Assembly (NCBI GenBank): GCA_003566775.1
Contig: PXBW01000324.1
Span: forward strand, 1 to 40,510
Origin: a candidate division WS1 bacterium
Lineage (GTDB): Bacteria > Armatimonadota > Zipacnadia > Zipacnadales > UBA5352
DNA: 40,510 nucleotides
Reading direction: 5' to 3'
Below the pieces are notes generated by a model. The model worked only from the letters and a program-made list of their open reading frames with translations. It had not been told where the DNA came from and ran no database searches. Below are positions 9,831 to 33,527 of the stretch, one piece after another (position 1 is the stretch's first letter; each line of letters opens with the position of its first letter). Both the position numbers and the translations under genes were made by a program.

Positions 9831-10175
9831 ATGACAGGACCGGGTGCTGCTACCGGGGGAATGGCCCCGGCCGAACCTGAAGAATCGCGCCCTGTGTACC
9901 ATATGCACCTTTTCGTGGCAGGTGATGAGCCGAATTCTCGGCGCGCCAGGGAAAACCTGGAGCGCCTGTGCGCGGATCATGTCCCCGGAGAGTGCGAGAT
10001 CGAGATAACCGATGTGCTGGTCGACTTCCAGGAGGCTATCGACGCCGGGATCTACGTCACCCCCGCATTGCTTGTCAACCGGACGGAATCGAAGGTAACG
10101 ATATTCGGTAATCTCAGCAATACTCAGAAAGTACTGGCGGCCCTGGGGTTGGAGGAGACCGTTGATGACCGATGA
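9831..10175 (+). CDS. kaiB: KaiB-family thioredoxin-fold protein
   Basis: 114 aa, starting 16 bp after kaiC behind a G-rich ribosome binding site. An N-terminal extension of about 22 residues, rich in A, G, P and E, precedes the KaiB core. The core shows YHMHLFVAG, EPNSRRA, DVLVDFQEA, YVTPALLV and FGNLSNTQKVL, matching KLYVAG...PNS...DVL...TPTL...GDLS of cyanobacterial KaiB. The first fold-switch proline (in VTPAL) is kept. The two others, in the LPLPVRR loop of Synechococcus KaiB, are replaced by NRTESKV. KaiB normally binds the KaiC CI ring after changing fold. Here binding is likely but the switching behaviour may differ. The stop overlaps the next gene by 11 bases. Confidence 0.88.
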   Translation: MTGPGAATGGMAPAEPEESRPVYHMHLFVAGDEPNSRRARENLERLCADHVPGECEIEITDVLVDFQEAIDAGIYVTPALLVNRTESKVTIFGNLSNTQKVLAALGLEETVDDR

Positions 10176-12651
10176 TGACAGGCTATCTTACGAGGAACTG
10201 CAAAGGCGCCTCGCGGACGCGGAGAGCGCAATCGAGGCACTCAGGCAGCACGAGGTGGATGCCGTAGTCGGGGAAGATGAGATCGCCTATGTCCGCCTGC
10301 GGCAGATGGAGGAGGCGCTGCGGGCGAAGACCCAGCAACTCAGCGATGTCCTCGAAAGCATCCGCGACGCATTCCTCGCTGTGGATAACGAGTGGAAGAT
10401 CACTTACATCAATGAGCATGCCGCTGCTCTCGCGGGCAGCAGCGCGGACGAAGTCGTCGGGCGCGATCTCTGGAAGAGCTTCGCCGCCCTGGCTGAATGT
10501 TCAGTGCAGGATCTCGCGCGTACGGTGAGCGACCTTAACGAACCACGCCATAAGACAGTGAAACTCGACGACCGCTGGTTGTCAGTGAGTATCTACCCCG
10601 CGACAGAAGGCCTCTCCATCTACTGGCGTGACATCACGCAGCAGAAACGCGTCGAGCGAAGGCGCGAGACCCAGCGTGAGTTGCTCGAGGCGCTGGTCGA
10701 GAACGCTTCGGTCGGGATCGCGGTAATCGGCGAGGATCGTCGATACCACATGGTGAACCCCGCCTACGCCGCCTTTCCAGGTCTTGACAAGAAACCGGTT
10801 GCGGGCGCTCTGTTGGAGGATGTGCTACCTGAGGAGATGCTTGAGACTGCTCTGCACATGCTGCAAACCACGCTTCAGTATGGCAGAGCAACGAGTATCA
10901 GGGAGTATGAGGTGCCGGGCCGGGGCACAGCTACCTCGAGTTACCTGAATATCGAGTATGTTCCTCTCGCCGAATCCGACGGTCCTGCAGAAACTGTGCT
11001 GGTGCTCACTTACGACGTCAGTGACGTCGTCCGCGCGCGGAAAGACGTTGAGAGACTTGCGCGACAGAGGGAGCGCAATCTGTCGCAACTGCAGGCTGTT
11101 CTGAGCAACATAGACCAGGGGTTGCTCATATTCGACCCGGGGGGAACTATCCTGATGGTGAACAGGGCCGCCCGCGCGTATCTCGCGGAAAGAGGACAGC
11201 CGATCCCGCAGACAATCGAGCAGATAGCCGAAATGTACAGTTTAGTCGACTGCTGCGGTGAACCGATCTCCGCGGACGAACTCCCGACTCAGAGAGTGCT
11301 GCGAGGCGATCGCTTCTCCGGTACGACGATTCGAGCCATCCCCTCAGACTCGGATGAAGAGATGATATATGACGTCGGCGGAGCGCCGATATATGATGAT
11401 GAGGGCAATCTGATACTCGGGATAATCACCATCAACGATATCACCGAGCGAGTGGCGACTGCCAGGCAGTTGCGGGCGCTCAATCAGAATCTGGAATCGG
11501 AGGTTGCTGAGAGGACCCGGATGGCGGAGAACCGGGCGAATCTGATACAGTCACTGGCGAACGATCTGCTCGAGGCCGAACAGCGCGAACGCACGCGGTT
11601 ATCGCACCTGCTGCACGATAATCTTCAGCAGATGCTCACAGCCGCTCAGATGCGGGCGCAAATGCTCAGCGGTCAGATGTATAATGCCGGGTCGCGCAAC
11701 GCGCTCGGCGAGTTGATAGATATGCTGGAGGAGGCAATACAGGAATCGCGCTCACTTGCAACCGAACTCAGCCCGCCCGTTCTCAGCCACGGTTTAGCCC
11801 CGGCCACCAGGTGGCTGGCCGAGCAGATGCACGATAAGCATCGGCTCAAGGTGAGCGCAACTATAGGCGAGAATGTGGAGCCGGGCAGCGAGGAACTGGC
11901 GGGCTTCCTCCTGCAGGCCATGCGCGAGTTGCTGTTCAACGTGGTCAAACACGCCGATGTCGAAGAGGCAGATGTCCATCTGACGCGTCAGGAAGAGCAC
12001 CTCTGTATCCGGGTCGAAGACGACGGCGTCGGCTTCGACGCCTCGGATGTTGCCGCCTCGGAACAGCCCGCGGAAGCAGGGGCGGGGCTACCGAATATAC
12101 GCAGACGCCTTGAGGTCCTCGGGGGCACGTTGGAGATTGACAGCAGTCCTGGAGAGGGAGCGGTCTTCACGCTCCAAGTTCCGGTAATCCACCGGGACGC
12201 GCAAGCCCATGTAGAACCGGAGCAGGAGAGTGACATACCCGCGCAGGCCGCTGCAGAACGCGACGTCGATGGCCGAGTGCGCACCATGATAGTCGATGAC
12301 CATGACGTTGTGCGCGGGGGGCTGGCGGAGCTGCTCGACGATTATCCCGATATCGAGGTCGTCGGCGACGCATGCGACGGAGCCACAGCAGTGAGGCTGG
12401 CGCGCGAGTTGCAGCCCGACGCGATCGTGATGGATGTGAGTATGCCGGGAATGACGGGCATCGAAGCCACCCGGCGCATTGTAGCGGAGAATCCCGGGAT
12501 CCGTGTCATCGGGCTGTCGATGCATGAGGAACGTGACGTGGCGCGCCAGATGATTGACGCAGGCGCTGAGGCGTTCGTGACCAAGGGAGGCCCTTACGAG
12601 GCTCTCATCAGCGCGATCCGCGGTCGGGATCTCCTCAATGAAGAGGAGTAG
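10165..12651 (+). CDS. Three-PAS hybrid histidine kinase with C-terminal NarL-type receiver
   Basis: The ATG at 10165 (828 aa) has GGAGGAG 7 bases upstream, inside the end of kaiB, so translation is probably coupled. Order: short coiled coil (8-60), PAS1 (about 60-165), PAS2 (about 170-295), PAS3 (about 308-430), coiled coil, HisKA_3-type dimerisation domain with phospho-His H484 in LLHDNLQQ, HATPase (about 575-672; [25 protein letters not shown]), then a receiver (about 706-822) with VDDHD, phospho-Asp D757 in VMDVSMPG and Lys807. There is no membrane segment, so it is a cytoplasmic sensor. NarL-family receivers normally precede a LuxR-type HTH; here the protein ends after the receiver. Likely the output partner of KaiBC, in the position of SasA or CikA in cyanobacteria (inference from operon). 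Confidence 0.93.
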
Positions 12652-23172: not shown

Positions 23173-24810
23173 ATGCCTGGCGCTCTGCTGATTAGCTTCG
23201 CAGGATACCCTTACACGCCAAGCAGCCTCCTTCCTGACAACGGCCTTGCGAATCTCGCGGGATCGCTCGCCGAGGCTGGAGTTGAGTCGCGTATTATCGA
23301 CTACGGTACTGTCTCGACCATGCGCAGGCTTTACCCGGCGGAGTTGACCGAGAGGCTCAAACCTCAGGCGGAGCGTCTCCTTTCCGGTGGGGGCGGGCCT
23401 GATGAGGAGATGCAGGCACAGCTCCGGCGGCTTGATGCCATGCTCGAGCAGCACCGTGAGACACAGATGCGAGAGATAGCGCTGGAGATTGCGGAGGAAG
23501 TGCGCAATCTCCGCCCCGATTTCGTAGGGATGAAGCTCTGGAACGGTGAGGGCTTCACCGGCAGCACATTGATCGCCGAACACATTCGAGAGGAGTTCCC
23601 CTCTCTGCCGATCTACGCGGGGGGCCCTCAGGCCTCATGGTGGGGTGGAGAAATCTACGGGCGCACGAAGGCATTCACCTGCCTCGTTGACGGCGAAGGG
23701 GAGCGCGTAATCAAGCTGCTGGCCCGCCATGCAACGGGAAGAATCGATCTGCAGAGTATCCCCGGCATAACGTACCTCGATGGGACAAAGCCCCGCCGCG
23801 TCCCACGGGCGGAGGGTCTTACTCTCAACGACCTTGCCGATCCGATATACGACAGCGAGGTCTATCCGGCGATGGCCGGTGACGAGAAGGTCAAGATCAT
23901 CGTAATCGACGACAGCCGCGGCTGTCCACATCAATGCGGTTTCTGTGCGCACCCGGTGGAGAGCGGTCGGCGCCTGCGTACGGTGAGCGCCGCAGTACTG
24001 GTCGATCGAATGCAGAGCATCATCGATCGGCACGGCATCACGGCTTTCCGTTTCTCAGGTTCATCCACTCCCGGCGATCTCATGGCCGATGTTGCCGAGG
24101 AGATTCTCGCACGTGGTTTGAACGTGCGCTTCACCAGTTTCGGGCATCTGGCAAGCGCGCGCCCGGATCACTTTGAGCAGATGGCACAGGCCGGACTGCG
24201 CTCCATATTCTTCGGCATAGAGTCGGGCTGTGAGGAAGTGCTGAAACAAGCCGCCCGGAAACGCCTGAGCCTCGACAGGGTCAAGAGCACGATAGACCAG
24301 GCGCAGCAGGCCGGGATCTTCGTGGTGGCAAGCATGATAGTGCCGATGCCCTTTGACACCGAGGAGACGCTGGCGCAGAGCCTCCGGTTTCTGCGCGAGG
24401 TGCGCCCGGATTCTGTACCGGTGCAGTTCCCTGGGCTGATTCCGGGAACACCGTGGTGGAACGAGCCGGAGAGTTTTCGCATCGAGTTCGATCCTGCTGA
24501 GATGACCGAAGTGGGCCTTGATTACAAGATCAAACTGCTCTTCCCCCCTTCAATGTGGGAGGAAGTCCCCTACCGTGTCAACGGCATGACCTTCCGTGAG
24601 TACACCCGGTTGACAGTCGAATTCACCCGGGCGCTGGAGCAGTCGGGGATACTCACGTCGGTACCTGATGACAACGTATTGATTGCGGATTACGCCGGGA
24701 TGGAGCCGCGACAGTTCCGCGATCTCTCGCGACTATGGTGCACGATCGGTGACGCAGAAGCGATGGGCCAGATGGTCGCAACCGCTAACCGCAGCATCCT
24801 CTCAGCGTGA
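23173..24810 (+). CDS. Cobalamin-binding-type radical SAM protein
   Basis: 545 aa from the ATG at 23173; an in-frame stop at 23164 rules out an upstream start. The N-terminus (about 1-200) has a B12-binding-like Rossmann fold (FAGYPYTPSSLLPDNGLANLA; IYAGGPQASWWGGEI) but the DxHxxG cobalamin His is not visible. The radical SAM core begins at about 240, with C251, C255 and C258 (CxxxCxxC) for the iron-sulfur cluster, and has the GIESGCEEVLK motif. These enzymes make a 5'-deoxyadenosyl radical; members with a B12 domain often methylate or rearrange natural-product or lipid substrates. Actual substrate unknown. GAGGAG lies about 20 bases upstream, beside a 10-codon GTG/ATG frame that ends 19 bases into the gene, which could couple or modulate translation. 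Confidence 0.82.
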   Translation: MPGALLISFAGYPYTPSSLLPDNGLANLAGSLAEAGVESRIIDYGTVSTMRRLYPAELTERLKPQAERLLSGGGGPDEEMQAQLRRLDAMLEQHRETQMREIALEIAEEVRNLRPDFVGMKLWNGEGFTGSTLIAEHIREEFPSLPIYAGGPQASWWGGEIYGRTKAFTCLVDGEGERVIKLLARHATGRIDLQSIPGITYLDGTKPRRVPRAEGLTLNDLADPIYDSEVYPAMAGDEKVKIIVIDDSRGCPHQCGFCAHPVESGRRLRTVSAAVLVDRMQSIIDRHGITAFRFSGSSTPGDLMADVAEEILARGLNVRFTSFGHLASARPDHFEQMAQAGLRSIFFGIESGCEEVLKQAARKRLSLDRVKSTIDQAQQAGIFVVASMIVPMPFDTEETLAQSLRFLREVRPDSVPVQFPGLIPGTPWWNEPESFRIEFDPAEMTEVGLDYKIKLLFPPSMWEEVPYRVNGMTFREYTRLTVEFTRALEQSGILTSVPDDNVLIADYAGMEPRQFRDLSRLWCTIGDAEAMGQMVATANRSILSA

Positions 24811-24812
24811 TT

Positions 24813-26435
24813 CTACGAGAGACGGTCATCATCAAGTAACTGTCCGATTCGTCTGCTGAGTTCCCTTAGATCGCAGGGCTTTCGTATCGTCATGTCGGCT
24901 ATCTCCAGTTCCTCGGCATCGGCTTCGTCGGTGAAAGCGCTGAGAATGATGATAATGGTATCCGGCGCGATCTTCCTGACCCGTCGGGCAAGCTCGACAC
25001 CGGATAATCCGGGCATCACCAGGTCGGTGACAACCACCCGTGGGGTAATCTGCCCGGCGTCGCGCGCCATCTCCTCGAACCTGCGTATCGCCTCCTCACC
25101 CGATGAGGTGACCCGCACTCTATAACCGTCAGAGGCGAGAACCTCTCGGGTGACCCGACGCATGCTTGCATTATCATCAACCACCAGCACAGAGGGCATG
25201 GCTTCTTCTGCGAAATGTGGCTGGCAGACGGGCAGTTTCACGGTAACGGTGGTTCCGACTCCGAGTGTGGAATCGAAGCAGATCGAACCGTTATGCTGAT
25301 CGACCACCTTGTGCCCGACGGTGAGTCCCAGGCCCGTTCCGTCCTCATCCTTGGTTGTGAAGAAAGGATCGGCGAGGTGTGAGATGATCTCTTTACTCAT
25401 CCCGACGCCCTCGTCTGTGATCTGTGCCACCACTCGATCGTCCTCAGCGCGCGTTAGGATTGTGATGGTGCCGGGGCGATCCGCCTCCGCAAGCGCATGA
25501 TAGGCGTTGATGATGAGATTCGTGAAGGTGGTGCGCAATCCTGTGGCGCTTCCTTCTATCTGCGGTAGTTCATCGAGATCGAACACGAGTGCATGGTCAT
25601 CGGACTTCTCAATGCGTCCCTCGCTGAGTTCAACTGACTCCCTCAGTATCTGGTTCAGATCTACCTGCTCGGTTGGCTCGTAGGGGCTGCTGGCTGTTAG
25701 AGCCGAGATGCGATCGAGCGCCTCTCCCCCGTCGCGCGCGGCAAGTGCCATCTGTTGCAGACCGTCGGCGAGGGTCTGTGGGTCAACCTCTCCTGACTGC
25801 TCCAGATCCAGCAGCATGACCTCTATGCGGAAGAGGATCGTTGAGAGGAAGTTGTTCATGTCGTGCGCGACCTCGGCCGCCATCTCTCCGATCGAACTCA
25901 GGCGCAGCATCTCATTCAACTGATCCTCGATGGAGTTGTGCGCGGATGCAAGATCTCGAGACAGTGCTTCGTGAGATACCGACTCTCGGGGTGTGGCGTC
26001 GTCGATCTGCTCTGAGAGATGCGTGATGGTCTTCTCGAGCTGTTTGAGAAGCACTTGCTCCTCCTTCTCACGTCGGCGTCTGGCGAGCGCACGTTCGACG
26101 ACTTCCTCTATCTCAGCCACACCGAACGGCTTAGTGATGTAGTCGAGAGCGCCGAGTCTGATAGCGCACTGCGCACTCTGGACTGCCGCGTAAGCGGTAA
26201 TCATCGCCACCTCGCACTTAGGGGCTATCTCCTTGATCCGTCGCAGCACCTCTGTCCCTTCCATCCCTGCCATTCGGATGTCGAGGAATACGAGATCAGG
26301 CGGGTCCGCGCGGATCATCGCAAGTGCTTCGCTTCCACGAGAAGCTGTGCGCACATCGTGGTCGTGATTGAGGATCATGCGCAGTGACTCGCGCGGACCT
26401 GTCTCATCATCAACTACCAGAATCCTGCCACCCAT
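24813..26435 (-). CDS. Receiver-histidine kinase-receiver hybrid protein
   Basis: 540 aa. Order: receiver 1 (5-118; DD at 9-10, phospho-Asp D52, Lys102), coiled linker, dimerisation domain with phospho-His H191 in VAHDMNN, HATPase (about 292-402; NLIINAYHAL, DEGVGM, GTGLGL all intact), receiver 2 (415-535; D471, Lys519). No membrane segment. The HDMNN H-box is like that of PAS-less NtrB/ZraS-style kinases. This is the third gene of a kinase operon; its start lies inside the end of the upstream kinase (26-base overlap) behind a perfect AGGAGG. It is the only protein of the three with receivers of normal sequence, so it may collect phosphate from the others. No DNA-binding domain is present. 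Confidence 0.92.
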   Translation of the reverse strand: MGGRILVVDDETGPRESLRMILNHDHDVRTASRGSEALAMIRADPPDLVFLDIRMAGMEGTEVLRRIKEIAPKCEVAMITAYAAVQSAQCAIRLGALDYITKPFGVAEIEEVVERALARRRREKEEQVLLKQLEKTITHLSEQIDDATPRESVSHEALSRDLASAHNSIEDQLNEMLRLSSIGEMAAEVAHDMNNFLSTILFRIEVMLLDLEQSGEVDPQTLADGLQQMALAARDGGEALDRISALTASSPYEPTEQVDLNQILRESVELSEGRIEKSDDHALVFDLDELPQIEGSATGLRTTFTNLIINAYHALAEADRPGTITILTRAEDDRVVAQITDEGVGMSKEIISHLADPFFTTKDEDGTGLGLTVGHKVVDQHNGSICFDSTLGVGTTVTVKLPVCQPHFAEEAMPSVLVVDDNASMRRVTREVLASDGYRVRVTSSGEEAIRRFEEMARDAGQITPRVVVTDLVMPGLSGVELARRVRKIAPDTIIIILSAFTDEADAEELEIADMTIRKPCDLRELSRRIGQLLDDDRLS

Positions 26436-28431
26436 GTTGGGCTACCTCCTGGTCTGTGGCGTTAGAAGCTTTACACAGCGGGAGCGATACCACCACGCTG
26501 AGGCGACTGTTTATGCATGAGACACTGAGCCGACCCCGTTGATTGGCGATGATTCTGCGGCTTATGACCGGACCGAGCGGGCAGTCCGGATCCTGCATGA
26601 CATGAATCGGGTCAAGGATCGACTCCGGATCAAGCTCGCCGTTCGCGTTGGTCATCCGGGTCATCTTGATGCAGATGCCTGTTGGATCATCTACCTCGGG
26701 CCCCACCTCCACGAGAACTGGATGTGGTTCATGACCTGCGAGGTACTCCAGTAGATAGCTCAAGGCATCCCGCGTGGCCGCCGGATCCACCAGTGCCGGC
26801 GGCAGATCATCAGGAGTATGCAGGTCGAAGGTCTGCTGCCTGATCGCGTTGTCCAACGGCACAGCATCGACGGCCTGGTAAAGGAGATCCTCCACAGATG
26901 CGGGCCGTGGCTTGCTCTCCGGTTGCTCGACCATTCGCAGCAGGTTCTTCAGCATGTCGTCGAGCCGATCTATCTCAGGCAGCACCGTCTCCGACCAGAA
27001 CTGCTCGAGGCGCTCGCCACCGCGACTGCCGCCCATCAACTCGGCGTAGGTCTTTACCGCCGTCAATGGATTCTTGACCTCGTGTGCGATTCGTCCCACG
27101 ATCTTCGTGATGACATCGAGCTTCTCGCTCCTGCTACGCTCCGCCGCAAGCTCGCGCTCGGTGGTCACGTCATCAAGCATCAGGACACTGCCGAGCGTTC
27201 TGCCTTCAGGATCGCGGACCGTCGAGGTACTCACCCGCAGCGAGGTGCGCCCACCGCGTATCGAGACCTCGTGACTGACCGTGTCCTCGTCGGGCACATT
27301 CAGCGCCGAGTATAACAGGTCGCCGAGTGGCGATGGCAGCGCACGAAGATCGGCGCCCTTCACCTCATCGCGCTCGAGGCCAAGCACCTCTGCAGCGTAG
27401 GGGTTGCACACCGCAATGCGTTCGTTAGTGTCAAGCGTGATCAAACCCGCTCCCATGCTCTCCACGATGCTGTCTGTGTAGGCCTTCGAGCGCGATAGTT
27501 CCCCGTGCAGTTCGATGCTCTCGGCGGCCAGCGCCACATGATTCGTGACACTGAAAAGCGTCTCGATTTCGTCACTGGAGTAGCCTTCCCCCAGCACCTT
27601 CTCGCCGAGGACAAGAATCCCCGCCAGGCGCCCGCGCACCATAATGGGAATCGCCAGTTGGCCGCCAAACAGATCCATCTCACGTTGCAGCATTGCGGCC
27701 TGACGCCGGTCTTCCCAGTCAGACAACTCCGACAACACCAGGACCCTGCGGTTGCGGCGGTACCAGGTGGGCAGCGCGTCATGCGAGCGGAGCCTTCCAC
27801 CCGCGAGCACCTCGGCACGGACCCCCCTGTGGCAGCGCGTGCGCAAAGCGCCGTCATCCGCCTCCCACAGGAGACAGTACCGGGCACACCGACAGAACTG
27901 ACTCACGGCATCCACGAATGCTTCGAGCAATCGATCGAGGTCGAAGCCACCCGTAATGCCTCCCATCAGGCGGTTGAAGGCATCCATATCTCCGACATGC
28001 CTCTCTGCGCCGTGAACTACCTCCGCTTCGGACGATCTGTCCTCGCTGGAACGATCGCTCTCCGCGCGCAGACGCGCGGTCTCCATCGCCTGACCGAGGA
28101 GTTGCCTGCGGTCATCAATGCTGCTTCCGGCACGAAGCCACACCTCCGGTCCACTCAGACCCTCCTGGCGCGCGCGCTCAACTACCTCCTCGGGAGCGAT
28201 GCACACCGTCACCGCATGCGTCGCCTGCTCGGTCAGACGCTCCAGGGTCATGAGCCGCTCGTCAGTAATCCGCTGCATCTCCAGCACTATCAACTCGACC
28301 GGGACCGCCTCAAGTAACTCCACAGCCGCCTCGACATCGGATGCTTCGAGGATAGTCGCACTATCATGGAGCGCATCGTGCATCTGACGCGCTCGTTCCC
28401 GACTGAGATCGGCCAGAATTGCCACTATCAT
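26410..28431 (-). CDS. Pseudo-receiver / GAF / PAS kinase-like protein with degenerate ATPase domain
   Basis: 673 aa. Residues 1-120 have a receiver-like fold, but the phospho-Asp position is Glu51 (LIVLEMQR) and the acidic pair is reduced to one Asp (AILADLS). A GAF domain (about 160-305) and a PAS (about 320-425) follow, then a normal H-box with H450 (RIAHEVKNPLTAV). The C-terminal ATPase domain (about 545-652) keeps its length but not its motifs. The N-box reads ALSYLLEYLAG, where the Mg-binding Asn is lost, and no DxGxG or GxGxGL is recognisable (PLGPVISRR instead). So the His can accept phosphate but self-kinase activity is doubtful. The gene abuts the upstream kinase (TAGATG) and overlaps the next. 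Confidence 0.85.
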   Translation of the reverse strand: MIVAILADLSRERARQMHDALHDSATILEASDVEAAVELLEAVPVELIVLEMQRITDERLMTLERLTEQATHAVTVCIAPEEVVERARQEGLSGPEVWLRAGSSIDDRRQLLGQAMETARLRAESDRSSEDRSSEAEVVHGAERHVGDMDAFNRLMGGITGGFDLDRLLEAFVDAVSQFCRCARYCLLWEADDGALRTRCHRGVRAEVLAGGRLRSHDALPTWYRRNRRVLVLSELSDWEDRRQAAMLQREMDLFGGQLAIPIMVRGRLAGILVLGEKVLGEGYSSDEIETLFSVTNHVALAAESIELHGELSRSKAYTDSIVESMGAGLITLDTNERIAVCNPYAAEVLGLERDEVKGADLRALPSPLGDLLYSALNVPDEDTVSHEVSIRGGRTSLRVSTSTVRDPEGRTLGSVLMLDDVTTERELAAERSRSEKLDVITKIVGRIAHEVKNPLTAVKTYAELMGGSRGGERLEQFWSETVLPEIDRLDDMLKNLLRMVEQPESKPRPASVEDLLYQAVDAVPLDNAIRQQTFDLHTPDDLPPALVDPAATRDALSYLLEYLAGHEPHPVLVEVGPEVDDPTGICIKMTRMTNANGELDPESILDPIHVMQDPDCPLGPVISRRIIANQRGRLSVSCINSRLSVVVSLPLCKASNATDQEVAQHGWQDSGS
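26445..26450 (-). promoter_or_regulatory. Perfect AGGAGG ribosome binding site inside the upstream gene
   Basis: AGGAGG on the minus strand, 9 bases before the ATG at 26435 and within the last codons of the preceding kinase gene. It fixes the start of the receiver-kinase-receiver gene and implies translational coupling. Confidence 0.8.
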
Positions 28432-30927
28432 CTACTGATCACCGGCTCTCGTGACAGCCCTCGATGCAGACAGCGGAAGCTCCACGGTGAACTGCGTGCC
28501 ATCTTCTGGAGTTGACTCAACGCGAACATCTCCGTTGTGCTCCTCGATTATCGTCTGGCAGATGGCCAGTCCGAGTCCGGTCCCGTGCGCCTTCTTGCTC
28601 ACAAATGGCCGGAATATCTCCTCGATCTGCTCCTCCGGTATAAAGCTCCCCGGATTGCGCACATGGATCATCACCCTATCCCGACTCTCCTGCCTGCTCT
28701 CCTGGCTGACCGTCAATGCCACCCGACCGTTCGGCGGCTCGGCATCGATCGCGTTGGTGATGATATTCAGAAGCGCCTGATGCAACCGCGTTTCGTCTCC
28801 AGAAGGACAACCATCGATCTCCTCAAGCTCCAGCAACATCTCGATTCCGCGGGCCTCCGCCATGCCCGAGGTAGCGCGCACAACCTCGCGGCATATGCGC
28901 TCCACGTCGATCGGCTCCACCACCGCATCCGCGGGCTTCGACAGCGTAAGCAGATCTCCGACCAGGCTGTCGATACGCTTGATCTCAGCCTGAGCGACCG
29001 TGAGGAAGTTTGACCGGAACTCGGGATCGTCGAGACGGCTGGGAGCCAGTTCGGCAAAGGTGCGGATCGCCACCAGCGGATTGCGGATCTCGTGGGCCAT
29101 TCCTGCGGAGATTACGCGGATCAGAGCAAGACGCTCCGCCTCCTGGCGCTCCCTGTCGAGTTCGCGGATCAGCGTCAGATCGCTGATCACCGCCACCGCA
29201 CCCCTCGCCCACTCCCCCTCACCCTCCAGCGGAGACGCGCTGCAGGCAACCGGAATACCCCGTCCGTCCCGCTCGAGTTCAATGTGTCTGCCGGACAGCA
29301 CCTCACCGGTCCGCAAACTGGCGCGCACACATTCCGCGATGCCTGGTGGAATAATCTCAATCGACGATCCGATCGCTTCATCTATGTCCATCCCGAGGAG
29401 GCGCTCAGCCGCCTCGTTAAACACAACGATTCTCTCCTGGTCGTCGGTCACGATCACCGCATTATCCATCTGGCGCAATATGCGCTCATTGAATTCCTTG
29501 AGCGTTGCCGTCTGTGCATACAGGTCCGCGTTGCGCAACGCCAGCGAAGCCTGCAGGGCCATCTCCGCGACGAAGGGCACGTCCGTGTCTTTGTACATCT
29601 CGCCGGAGCGTTTGTAGCCCAGCGTGACGAGGCCGATCAACTGCTCCTCCCAGATCATGGGGGCGACTATCTCTACCCCCAGATCATCCATCGCCGCCGC
29701 AACTCGGCGTGCCTCCGGGAGTGCCGTAAAGCGGAATACCCGATCCCGACTCAGCAGGCTGGCCTCGCGGGCCGCGTGAACCACCAGCGGATCACGAGCG
29801 GAAATCGGCTCCGGCTCCCATCTCTCCCCATTGCTGCGCTCACCATGGGACGAGCGCCGCCACGCGCGAGGTCTCAATGCCTCATCGCCGGATTCCCCGG
29901 TATAGATCACGACTCTCTGCGGCTCAAGTGCGTCGTCGAGCGCTCCCGCAAGATAATCGAGCAACTGCTCGGCGTCGAGAGTGCGAAGAATGTGCGATGC
30001 CGTCTCCGCCTGTACAGATTCCGAATCGCCGGCCGATGATGATAGCAACCTGGACATCAGGTGCGTGCCTCTATCGTAGATGATCACGAGCAGGAGACCG
30101 AGCACAAGCCCTATGCCAATGTACGGAGGGGCTGATGAATGCTCGACAACAGTGGACATCGGCACAAAGAGATAGAGCATGATCGCGCCGATAAGCAGAA
30201 CGATGATGGCTGAAGCCAGTGCGGCGCCGACGCGCCGCAGCGCGAGTCCCACCGGCAGTAGCTGATGCTTCACGATCGCATAACCCATGCCGACAAGCTG
30301 GCAGAGCGCTCCTGCTGCCCCCCAACCGCTGTAGGCGGTTGTACCCCATACAAGGGGAATTATGATGATCGTGAACATACCGACGAGATGTGTTCCTGCG
30401 AAGCCGACCAGCACCCAGATTGCCTGCTGGCGCTGCACACCGTCAAGTCGGAATGCCTTGAGCAATATGACCACATCTGCATAGGTCATCGAGAGTACAA
30501 TGAAAGCGCCGAATGGTACGAGAGGCCAGCCGTACTGCACGTTGACCAGGCCATCGCTCAAACTGATCGAATCATAGAGGTCCGGGGCGAAACCGAGTGC
30601 GCCGAATGATACCCCGGCCGCATAGAGCATCAGACGTCGTGTGATTGGAGCAGGCTCAATGCGTTCGGGGAAGACCCATGCGAAATCGATCATCGTGCAG
30701 GCAACGAGCGCCGCCAGCGGATGCGACAGGCGCAGATAGAAGCCCGCCTCTGTAGCGGTGCTCGAACTCATGATGAGGAAGTTTGCCAGCGCCCAGACGC
30801 CGATTACAGTCCCGTGGACTGCGAAGAGCCGGTTCCAGACACGATCAGAGGTGCGCTGGTACACGCTTAGTGCCAGCGCGATGGAGGCGGCGGCCGCGAA
30901 CGCCAGTGAGATCAGATTGATATTCAA
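28432..30927 (-). CDS. Seven-plus-one-TM membrane histidine kinase with GAF and PAS
   Basis: 831 aa from a TTG at 30927 with GGAGG exactly 7 bases upstream; the overlapping ATG in that ribosome site opens only five codons. Residues 1-220 hold seven hydrophobic segments like the HisKA_7TM sensor region, with an eighth and ninth near 235-285. GAF (about 305-470), PAS (about 483-590), H-box with H612 (GMAHEIRNPLVAI), and HATPase to the end (N-box NIITNAIDA, F-box FRPFVSKKAHGTGLGLA). The G1 box reads VRNPGSF instead of DxGxG, as in some active kinases. It likely senses a membrane or extracellular cue and starts the three-kinase operon. The ketoacyl synthase gene is 72 bp upstream on the same strand. 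Confidence 0.9.
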   Translation of the reverse strand: MNINLISLAFAAAASIALALSVYQRTSDRVWNRLFAVHGTVIGVWALANFLIMSSSTATEAGFYLRLSHPLAALVACTMIDFAWVFPERIEPAPITRRLMLYAAGVSFGALGFAPDLYDSISLSDGLVNVQYGWPLVPFGAFIVLSMTYADVVILLKAFRLDGVQRQQAIWVLVGFAGTHLVGMFTIIIIPLVWGTTAYSGWGAAGALCQLVGMGYAIVKHQLLPVGLALRRVGAALASAIIVLLIGAIMLYLFVPMSTVVEHSSAPPYIGIGLVLGLLLVIIYDRGTHLMSRLLSSSAGDSESVQAETASHILRTLDAEQLLDYLAGALDDALEPQRVVIYTGESGDEALRPRAWRRSSHGERSNGERWEPEPISARDPLVVHAAREASLLSRDRVFRFTALPEARRVAAAMDDLGVEIVAPMIWEEQLIGLVTLGYKRSGEMYKDTDVPFVAEMALQASLALRNADLYAQTATLKEFNERILRQMDNAVIVTDDQERIVVFNEAAERLLGMDIDEAIGSSIEIIPPGIAECVRASLRTGEVLSGRHIELERDGRGIPVACSASPLEGEGEWARGAVAVISDLTLIRELDRERQEAERLALIRVISAGMAHEIRNPLVAIRTFAELAPSRLDDPEFRSNFLTVAQAEIKRIDSLVGDLLTLSKPADAVVEPIDVERICREVVRATSGMAEARGIEMLLELEEIDGCPSGDETRLHQALLNIITNAIDAEPPNGRVALTVSQESRQESRDRVMIHVRNPGSFIPEEQIEEIFRPFVSKKAHGTGLGLAICQTIIEEHNGDVRVESTPEDGTQFTVELPLSASRAVTRAGDQ

Positions 30928-30999: not shown

Positions 31000-32271
31000 T
31001 CAGGCCGTGTCTTCGAACCGTCGCAGTATGAGTGCGGCGTGAGTTCCCCCAAAGCTGTGCGAGTTCAGCATCACGGTGTCAACCCGTGCCCGACGAGCGG
31101 TGTTCGGAACATAGTCAAGATCACAATCCGGGTCGGGCACGGAGTAGTTGATTGTAGGCGGAACCAGGTGCTCCCGGATGGACATGCAAGAGGCGATCGC
31201 CTGCCAGGCTCCGCCGGCGGCGAACGGTTGCCCTGTGGTGCTCTTGATCGAGCTGATTGGGATGTGATGCGCCCGATCGCCGAGCACCATCTTCAACGCG
31301 CGTGTGTCGGCCCGGTCGTAGTCCATGTTCGCTATCCCGTGCGCGCATACGTAATCGATGTCGGCGGAAGCCAGACGTGCCTCCTGAAGCGCCTGTCGAA
31401 ATGCGTGGGCCAGTTCGATGCCGCTTGGATCCGGCACCACGAGATGCTGAGCCTCCGTTGCGGTACCGTACCCGCGAACTTCGGCGTATATCGGAGCACC
31501 GCGCTTGACAGCGTGTCGTGCGGTCTCGAGCACCACAGCGCCGGCGCCTTCGCTTAGTACCAGTCCATCGCGCGTTGCGTCATAGGGGCGCGAGGCTTTC
31601 CCGGGTTCCTCGTTGTGGCCGCTTACAACTCCAACTCGACAGAGTAGTGACAGCCCGAAACGACTCACACATGCCTCACTGGCTCCAACGACCATCACAT
31701 CGGCCTGACCGCTGCGGAGAATCTCGGTGCCCTGGTGGATCGCCTCCAGTCCTGAGCAGCAGCCTGATCCCACCGTCGCATTGGGTCCGCGCAGTCCCAT
31801 CTCAATGAACACATGCGCGGTTCCCGCGTGAGCCGCAAGCTGCACGCAGTCCGTGGAGCCGAAGCCCTTCATTCCCTTCTCCAGGAAGCGCTCATATATC
31901 TCATCCGTCACGTTACCGTTTCCCGCGCTGCTGTTGCCAAAGACCACACCAGCCCGGAAAGGATCAACGGAGCCGAGATCGATCTGTGAATCTTCCAGCG
32001 CCATGCGCGCCGCCGCCACCGAGTAATGCACGAACTTGCCGGAGCGTCGGGCATCACGCGAGTTCATGTAGGCGGAGGGATCGAAGTCGGTAATCTCTCC
32101 GGCCACTCGGGAGTAGAGGTCTTCACATGGAAAACCGGTAATGTGCCGCACGCCGGACCGGCCCTCAACCACGGCCTTCCAGAATTCGCTTCTGCCCATA
32201 CCGGTTGAGGAGACCACACCGAGACCGGTGATCACCACCCGCCGAGCTGGATGCATCATTCGCAGGCTCAT
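31000..32271 (-). CDS. Beta-ketoacyl-ACP synthase II-like protein with His-to-Gln active-site change
   Basis: 423 aa, typical FabF length. GGAG lies before the ATG. Thiolase fold throughout. Nucleophile Cys171 (GSGCCSG), first catalytic His311 (CAHGIANMDYD) and Lys343 (SIKSTTG) are kept. The second catalytic His, in the GHxxGAAG motif of FabF, is Gln348 (TTGQPFAAGG). The C-terminal SFGGTHAALIL matches the FabF GFGGTN gate. In FabF the two His residues help decarboxylate malonyl-ACP, so activity may be altered, or Gln may act as Asn does in KASIII. No ACP, KR or other fatty-acid genes are near, so this is probably not the housekeeping fabF. It lies between an outer-membrane barrel gene and the kinase operon on one strand. 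Confidence 0.85.
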   Translation of the reverse strand: MSLRMMHPARRVVITGLGVVSSTGMGRSEFWKAVVEGRSGVRHITGFPCEDLYSRVAGEITDFDPSAYMNSRDARRSGKFVHYSVAAARMALEDSQIDLGSVDPFRAGVVFGNSSAGNGNVTDEIYERFLEKGMKGFGSTDCVQLAAHAGTAHVFIEMGLRGPNATVGSGCCSGLEAIHQGTEILRSGQADVMVVGASEACVSRFGLSLLCRVGVVSGHNEEPGKASRPYDATRDGLVLSEGAGAVVLETARHAVKRGAPIYAEVRGYGTATEAQHLVVPDPSGIELAHAFRQALQEARLASADIDYVCAHGIANMDYDRADTRALKMVLGDRAHHIPISSIKSTTGQPFAAGGAWQAIASCMSIREHLVPPTINYSVPDPDCDLDYVPNTARRARVDTVMLNSHSFGGTHAALILRRFEDTA

Positions 32272-32312: not shown

Positions 32313-33401
32313 CTACCAGTATCGCCCGACTTCAAGCTGATGGGTATCCGAGCCACCAAGCAGTTCTCCCACTTCGTTGTCGTTCCAGCCGTCGATGAAC
32401 GCGTAGTTGACTACCCAGTCGTCACGGCTGTAACCTGCACCCAGCGTCATTGCTCCCGCTCGCGAACCCGCACGCATGTGCAGGCCCCGCTCAAATTCGT
32501 ACTCCAGTCCGAGATGCAGTCCTTCGGCATCTGTCCGGTGATCCCCCGAAGCCGACCGCAACTGCATCCACTCTATCGCACCAAGCAGGCCCTCACCGAC
32601 CCGCCCCGAGGCACCGATCCCGAATGTGGTCGAGTTGAAGCGTAAACTCTCTGTAGATGCACCGGGCAGGGGTGGTCGGAAGCATACGCTTTCCCGATAG
32701 TAGTCGAACACCAAACCCGCATAGCCGTCGTGGTCATGTCGGTGCAGCACACCGACGCGCAGGCCCCAGTCCGCCTTGCTGTCCCACGACGCGACCTCAT
32801 TCCCGGCCGGATCGAAAAGTCGGGTTGTGGTCTCAAGTATCGGGGCGACACCCACTCCCAACATCCACCGATCGGCCAGGCGGCGGCCGTAGTGTACCGC
32901 CACGTCGGACTCCTCCGTCTCAATCTCGAGGCCGGGTGCAGTCAGACCTCCTCGATTACTGTCGAGCCGCAGTCCGACAAGTTGCATGCCCTCCTCCATA
33001 CCGAGAGGCAGGGAGTACCATGCATGAGTTCCGCGGAGTTTCAAGCCCTCACCGAACTGTGTAGACGAGTGTCTCAGCCCCGCCTGGGATTGAGAGAGTG
33101 TGCCGGCGAATGCAGGATTCGCGAACCCGATGTCTTCAACTGTAGTGGCGACCCCACCCATTCCGAACTGTCGGGCGGTCGTGGCGGTTGCAAGTGAGAA
33201 GAGGTGCGGGACTGCGTACATCTCGGGACCAGGGTCAGGGGGAGATTGCTGCGCAAACGATGATACTCCGCTGGTGACCAGGAGTGTCACAAGTAGTGGG
33301 AAGACTAAGTACGCGTGACAACACCTCCCCGCAGGTCCGGCCTGTGACGATTGCCGGACATACGGTGGAAGCGCAGAACTCCACTGCCGCAGGGTATGCA
33401 A
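32313..33401 (-). CDS. Outer-membrane beta-barrel protein (PorV/FadL-like)
   Basis: The frame has no ATG near its start. TTG at 33401 has GGGAGG 7 bases upstream and gives 362 aa; TTG at 33416 lacks one. A hydrophobic stretch about 32-52 ending in SSFAQQ looks like a signal peptide with an unusually long N-region. After it, TTARQFGMGGVATTVEDIGFANPA is the opening of PorV/UPF0164-type barrels (GxGGxxxxxxD...NPA). The rest alternates polar and hydrophobic residues and ends with aromatic Trp, as outer-membrane proteins do. Ligand and transport role unknown. 41 bp upstream of the ketoacyl synthase gene. A frameshift in the N-terminus is the alternative to the TTG start. Confidence 0.75.
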   Translation of the reverse strand: MHTLRQWSSALPPYVRQSSQAGPAGRCCHAYLVFPLLVTLLVTSGVSSFAQQSPPDPGPEMYAVPHLFSLATATTARQFGMGGVATTVEDIGFANPAFAGTLSQSQAGLRHSSTQFGEGLKLRGTHAWYSLPLGMEEGMQLVGLRLDSNRGGLTAPGLEIETEESDVAVHYGRRLADRWMLGVGVAPILETTTRLFDPAGNEVASWDSKADWGLRVGVLHRHDHDGYAGLVFDYYRESVCFRPPLPGASTESLRFNSTTFGIGASGRVGEGLLGAIEWMQLRSASGDHRTDAEGLHLGLEYEFERGLHMRAGSRAGAMTLGAGYSRDDWVVNYAFIDGWNDNEVGELLGGSDTHQLEVGRYW

Positions 33402-33408
33402 TCTGGTG

Positions 33409-33414
33409 CCTCCC
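33409..33414 (-). promoter_or_regulatory. Ribosome binding site supporting a TTG start of the barrel gene
   Basis: GGGAGG on the minus strand sits 7 bases before TTG at 33401, the only well-spaced start available upstream of the signal peptide. Confidence 0.5.
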
Positions 33415-33527
33415 AATATGCGTTTTGTGCTGCGATTGCGGCGGGACGCGCTCTGTGATCGCCGCCGGACAAATCAGGTGCGGTGGCGGAGATTAGGTTG
33501 TTGAGTTCCGGTTGAACGTTTGCAAAG

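Follow-up and report, generated by a model that had tools for sequence, protein, structure and literature searches.

A histidine kinase that has lost its ATP-binding boxes is fixed between a membrane sensor kinase and a hybrid kinase in a candidate division WS1 bacterium, in a gene set that is kept across the order Zipacnadales and recurs, with other receiver proteins in place of the hybrid kinase, in other classes. The window (the whole stretch of 40,510 nucleotides that was analysed) encodes these proteins end to end, as the membrane kinase A, the pseudokinase B and the hybrid kinase C. The reading tentatively preferred, at a little under an even chance, is that A phosphorylates the first receiver of C (REC1) and that B is an ATP-independent modulator, a phosphatase or an inhibitor, of the RetS type. 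The genes and domains concerned are as follows:

23173 to 24810, plus strand: B12-binding radical SAM protein, convergent with C; conserved neighbour
24813 to 26435, minus strand: C, hybrid kinase with the order REC1-HisKA-HATPase-REC2; 540 aa, ATG start
26410 to 28431, minus strand: B, pseudokinase with the order pseudo-receiver-GAF-PAS-HisKA (His450, Asn454)-degenerate ATPase domain; 673 aa, ATG start
26467 to 26844, minus strand: degenerate ATPase (CA) domain of B, about residues 530-655; boxes replaced, conserved DLGPxIS
26926 to 27120, minus strand: DHp of B, about residues 438-502; HEVKNP box with His450
28048 to 28431, minus strand: pseudo-receiver of B, residues 1-128; from hhalign against the C REC1 profile and from AF2
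28432 to 30927, minus strand: A, membrane sensor kinase with the order 7TM (HisKA_7TM-like)-GAF-PAS-HisKA-HATPase, from its open reading frame and Pfam; 831 aa, TTG start
31000 to 32271, minus strand: FabF-like ketosynthase (KS), upstream of A; conserved neighbour
32313 to 33416, minus strand: outer-membrane-protein-like gene with a weak PorV/PorQ match, first of the putative operon; conserved

The ATG of B directly follows the TAG stop codon of A (an overlap of 0 bases), while the ATG of C lies within B (an overlap of 26 bases) and is preceded by the Shine-Dalgarno sequence AGGAGG; GGAGG is found upstream of the TTG start of A. The first-pass annotation had reported three kinase genes end to end with these same overlaps, and both the ORF coordinates and the junction letters agree with it. 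Upstream of A on its strand come the ketosynthase, after 72 intervening bases, and then, after 41 more, the PorV-like gene; the PorV-like gene, KS, A, B and C likely constitute one putative operon. Its first gene is a near-constant presence before KS (PorV/PorQ match at E 9e-5, below the cut-off). In KS, the catalytic C-H-H triad has become C-H-Q (KSTTGQ) through replacement of the second His; virtually all order orthologs share the Gln, as does family f40, while family f11 has Asn, and the enzyme appears to represent a distinct class tied to the kinase module. The radical SAM gene on the opposite strand converges on C in a near-constant arrangement, its product showing 43-70% identity within the order. 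A second sensory hybrid kinase, with PAS repeats, an MctS/LiaS-like kinase part and a terminal GacA-like receiver, is encoded elsewhere in the window (10162-12651, plus strand), and a scan of the genome's contigs returned a single weak match, a distant kinase.

B retains a recognizable HisKA domain (Pfam 1e-7, 32 bits, over the cut-off) and gives no HATPase hit at E<1, in keeping with its earlier description as a kinase with a dead-looking ATPase domain and an intact His450. That description had missed the N-terminal pseudo-receiver. Residues 1-128 of B match the REC1 profile of C (hhalign probability 92%, E 8e-7) and adopt a (beta-alpha)5 pattern in a single-sequence AF2 model (pLDDT 66); Foldseek finds weak receiver matches only, and the phospho-Asp and Lys are not conserved. 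The protein ends after the CA domain, with neither C-terminal receivers nor a membrane part, and its kinase part modelled alone by AF2 reaches a pLDDT of 46.

Loss of the N, G1 and G2 boxes extends to all readable order copies of B (34/35, the remaining copy being cut by a contig end before the ATPase boxes). Among its orthologs, Tyr, His or another residue stands in for the Mg-binding N-box Asn and the G1 box is gone. Chance, annotation error and sequencing error are ruled out by the loss in all readable orthologs, and autophosphorylation of B does not appear plausible. The glycine box GxGLG has been replaced by a new conserved motif, DLGP (DLGPxIS), in which D618, L619, G620, P621 and S624 (alignment positions) are nearly invariant, indicating that the dead CA domain is under selection with a motif of its own. 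Retention of the CA fold is supported by homology, the B profile aligning over the entire PAS-DHp-CA of Thermotoga maritima ThkA (PDB 3a0r; E 5e-34) and the CA profile of B aligning with that of A. A recent origin of B as a tandem copy of A is unsupported, given that the B clade includes f40, which belongs to another class, though B branches are long.

A has strong matches to HisKA (1e-13) and HATPase (2e-29) in Pfam. The first-pass annotation called this kinase intact, which holds for the H, N and G2 boxes, invariant among the aligned order orthologs, and fails for the G1 box, where all of these orthologs have Asn in place of Asp. Outside the order, the position is Asn in f11 and Asp in f40, and none of the genome's other kinases with a readable G1 box has Asn there. 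ThkA is the closest solved structure to A, as it is for PAS-DHp-CA of B, and has the identical G1 Asn (WNSGPPI); A is therefore most likely active, and its interpretation as a second pseudokinase is not favoured. ThkA itself is a single kinase that is not known to have a pseudokinase partner. An A-like paralog in another genome (L105:827-3241 in G251) is the mirror image of B, with an intact ATPase domain and Asn in place of the phospho-acceptor His (IANEIKNP). Proof of complementation would come from a genome combining a His-less A with a His-bearing B; this paralog, which stands alone, is the only A-like gene found to lack the His.

The third protein, C, conforms to its earlier description as a receiver-kinase-receiver hybrid. 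Pfam detects two receivers and HATPase (8e-20), and with both receivers and all kinase boxes intact, C combines receivers with the complete transmitter of a hybrid histidine kinase.

A and B are each present in 34 of the 41 order genomes and C in 31, with all three absent from G004, G010, G013, G018, G023 and G027; the remaining gaps are contig ends, except in G031, where no C is found. This shared presence and absence favours joint action. A adjoins B in every order copy where the contig allows the test, and B adjoins C in the fetched loci except in genus g13, where C lies about 13 kb away (G016) or B is followed by another gene (G031). KS is found upstream of the conserved A-B-C order. One genome, G007, carries two A-B-C sets (L039 and L040; contamination estimate 8%). 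Beyond the order, in other classes, the arrangement is KS-methyltransferase-A-B-REC-HD in f40 and KS-A-B-REC in f11. The f40 gene that takes the place of C encodes a receiver fused to HD_5 (L104:9653-10864 and L103:1445-2614), possibly a phosphodiesterase of the cyclic-nucleotide type. Given that B is followed by REC-HD in f40 and by REC alone in f11, the receiver, rather than the kinase part of C, appears to be the constant partner of B. In the tree, B from the order groups with B from f40 in a single clade (88/87), so ATP use was probably lost before the two split, though long branches leave some doubt. Conservation of the gene order in other genomes had been proposed as a check on the three-gene system, and two findings had been named as fatal to it: ATP binding with autophosphorylation by B, and genes not conserved together. 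Neither is seen at the sequence level, since autophosphorylation of B is implausible with the ATP boxes gone order-wide, and the genes are conserved together.

The conservation of individual domains bears on the route of the phosphate. Mean pairwise identity is 70% for the DHp of A and 64% for REC1 of C, compared with 49% for the DHp of B and 37% for its dead CA domain. The two best-conserved domains of the set are thus those of A and C, as expected of a phosphotransfer pair, and together with the constancy of the receiver across classes this points to a main phosphate route that runs from A to REC1. Under the preferred RetS-type reading, A would autophosphorylate using ATP and then phosphorylate REC1, which would gate C's own kinase and second receiver. 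B would dock through its DHp onto the same pair, A and REC1, where it could remove phosphate from REC1 through HExxN/T transmitter phosphatase activity, block autophosphorylation of A, or both, with its GAF and PAS domains and pseudo-receiver controlling this action. The phosphatase motif HExxT/N is present in the window's B, as HEVKN; in the order, its +4 Asn/Thr, a residue linked to transmitter phosphatase activity, occurs in 35/35 copies of B, as does the Pro, and the +1 acid in 30/35. RetS of Pseudomonas aeruginosa similarly combines a degenerate HATPase with an intact HExxT, serves both as phosphatase and as inhibitor of its partner kinase, and does not use its HisKA His as the phospho-acceptor (PMC5992135). 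It resembles B in lacking G-boxes, in its HExxT-type DHp box and in having a hybrid kinase, GacS, as partner. It differs from B in having a periplasmic sensor, a membrane part and two C-terminal receivers where B has an N-terminal pseudo-receiver-GAF-PAS, and B shares an operon with its presumed partners.

Against this reading, the conservation of His450 would suit a role in phosphotransfer no less well. The phospho-acceptor His is present in 33/35 order copies of B, and both f40 copies keep the His with their ATP boxes lost. The main rival, ranked second and judged unlikely, is essentially the earlier idea that B is phosphorylated in trans: A and B would form a heterodimer through their DHp domains, the ATPase of A would phosphorylate His450 of B, the His of A or both, and REC1 would be phosphorylated by the pair. 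The precedent is FasBC of group A Streptococcus, in which the kinase domain of FasC is dispensable and the His of FasC, the presumed target of FasB, is needed (PMC12675982). As in that system, kinase and pseudokinase genes are adjacent, here in every order copy that could be tested, and their products would act on one receiver; the DHp domains of A and B are also related (profile match; tree 91/90). FasC is membrane-bound, in contrast to B, and FasA is a DNA-binding regulator where C is a hybrid kinase. What weighs against a heterodimer of this kind is loss of the His while B still adjoins A, both in two genomes of genus g20, whose copies read AQQIRTP and AQDIRTP at the His box, and in f11, where the ATP boxes are lost as well; the +1 acid is also lost in several copies of family f4. 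As the g20 and f11 copies stay in place without it, B can be kept without its His, which seems dispensable for the retention of the protein. With these losses and the RetS precedent, obligatory phosphorylation of B in trans, as claimed by the first-pass annotation, is not established.

Docking of B onto the partners of A, as the preferred RetS-type reading proposes, is compatible with the similarity of their DHp domains. The DHp profile of B matches that of A at E 5.5e-25 and that of C far more weakly, and the helix below the His (A[IV][RK]T[FY]AEL-like) is kept in B, even in the His-less g20 copies. This similarity is not unique, which counts against the reading: L079, a further kinase of the genome, comes about as close to A as B does, and the A/B match was rejected as unique proof of pairing. 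The conserved +4 Asn/Thr could likewise be structural alone.

Two further readings assign B a different activity. In the first, which seems quite improbable, the DHp of B would carry phosphate on its His from one receiver to another, such as from REC2 to REC1 of C or to an unlinked regulator. ChpT likewise combines a DHp with an ATP-incompetent Bergerat-like domain (PMC3433190), and C offers two intact receivers. However, ChpT and Spo0B are obligatory His shuttles without sensory domains, the HPTransfase model (PF10090) gives no hit to B at E<1, the f40 and f11 partners of B are single-receiver proteins rather than hybrid kinases, and two lineages have lost the His. These losses, with the rest of B kept, speak for the second, itself improbable, in which B performs no chemistry and, by sensing REC1 phosphorylation or a ligand, would switch A or C allosterically. 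Most of the invariant residues of B fall in the GAF and PAS domains, and DivL of Caulobacter, a PAS-linked pseudokinase that controls the hybrid kinase CckA, provides a precedent (PMC4211667). DivL has lost its His (to Tyr), whereas in B the losses concern the ATP boxes and the His is mostly kept; conservation of the His and the +4 residue in most lineages counts against this reading, as pure binding would not require it.

A broader speculation, with only a slim chance of being correct, is that kinase, pseudokinase and receiver form an ancient obligate unit, in which the altered KS would make a small lipid-like signal read by the 7TM of A, B would be an ATP-free counter-enzyme, and the effector would have been swapped between lineages (kinase, HD domain or none).

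Only a handful of pseudo-histidine kinases have been described, each studied singly. The circuit type is thus already known from a few other bacteria, and the set of kinase, pseudokinase and hybrid kinase represents a well-conserved new variant of it. Here the pseudokinase is fixed beside its kinase order-wide and recurs in other classes, with natural variants that have and lack the His, so that comparison of natural orthologs can test what purpose the His serves in a histidine kinase that is otherwise dead.
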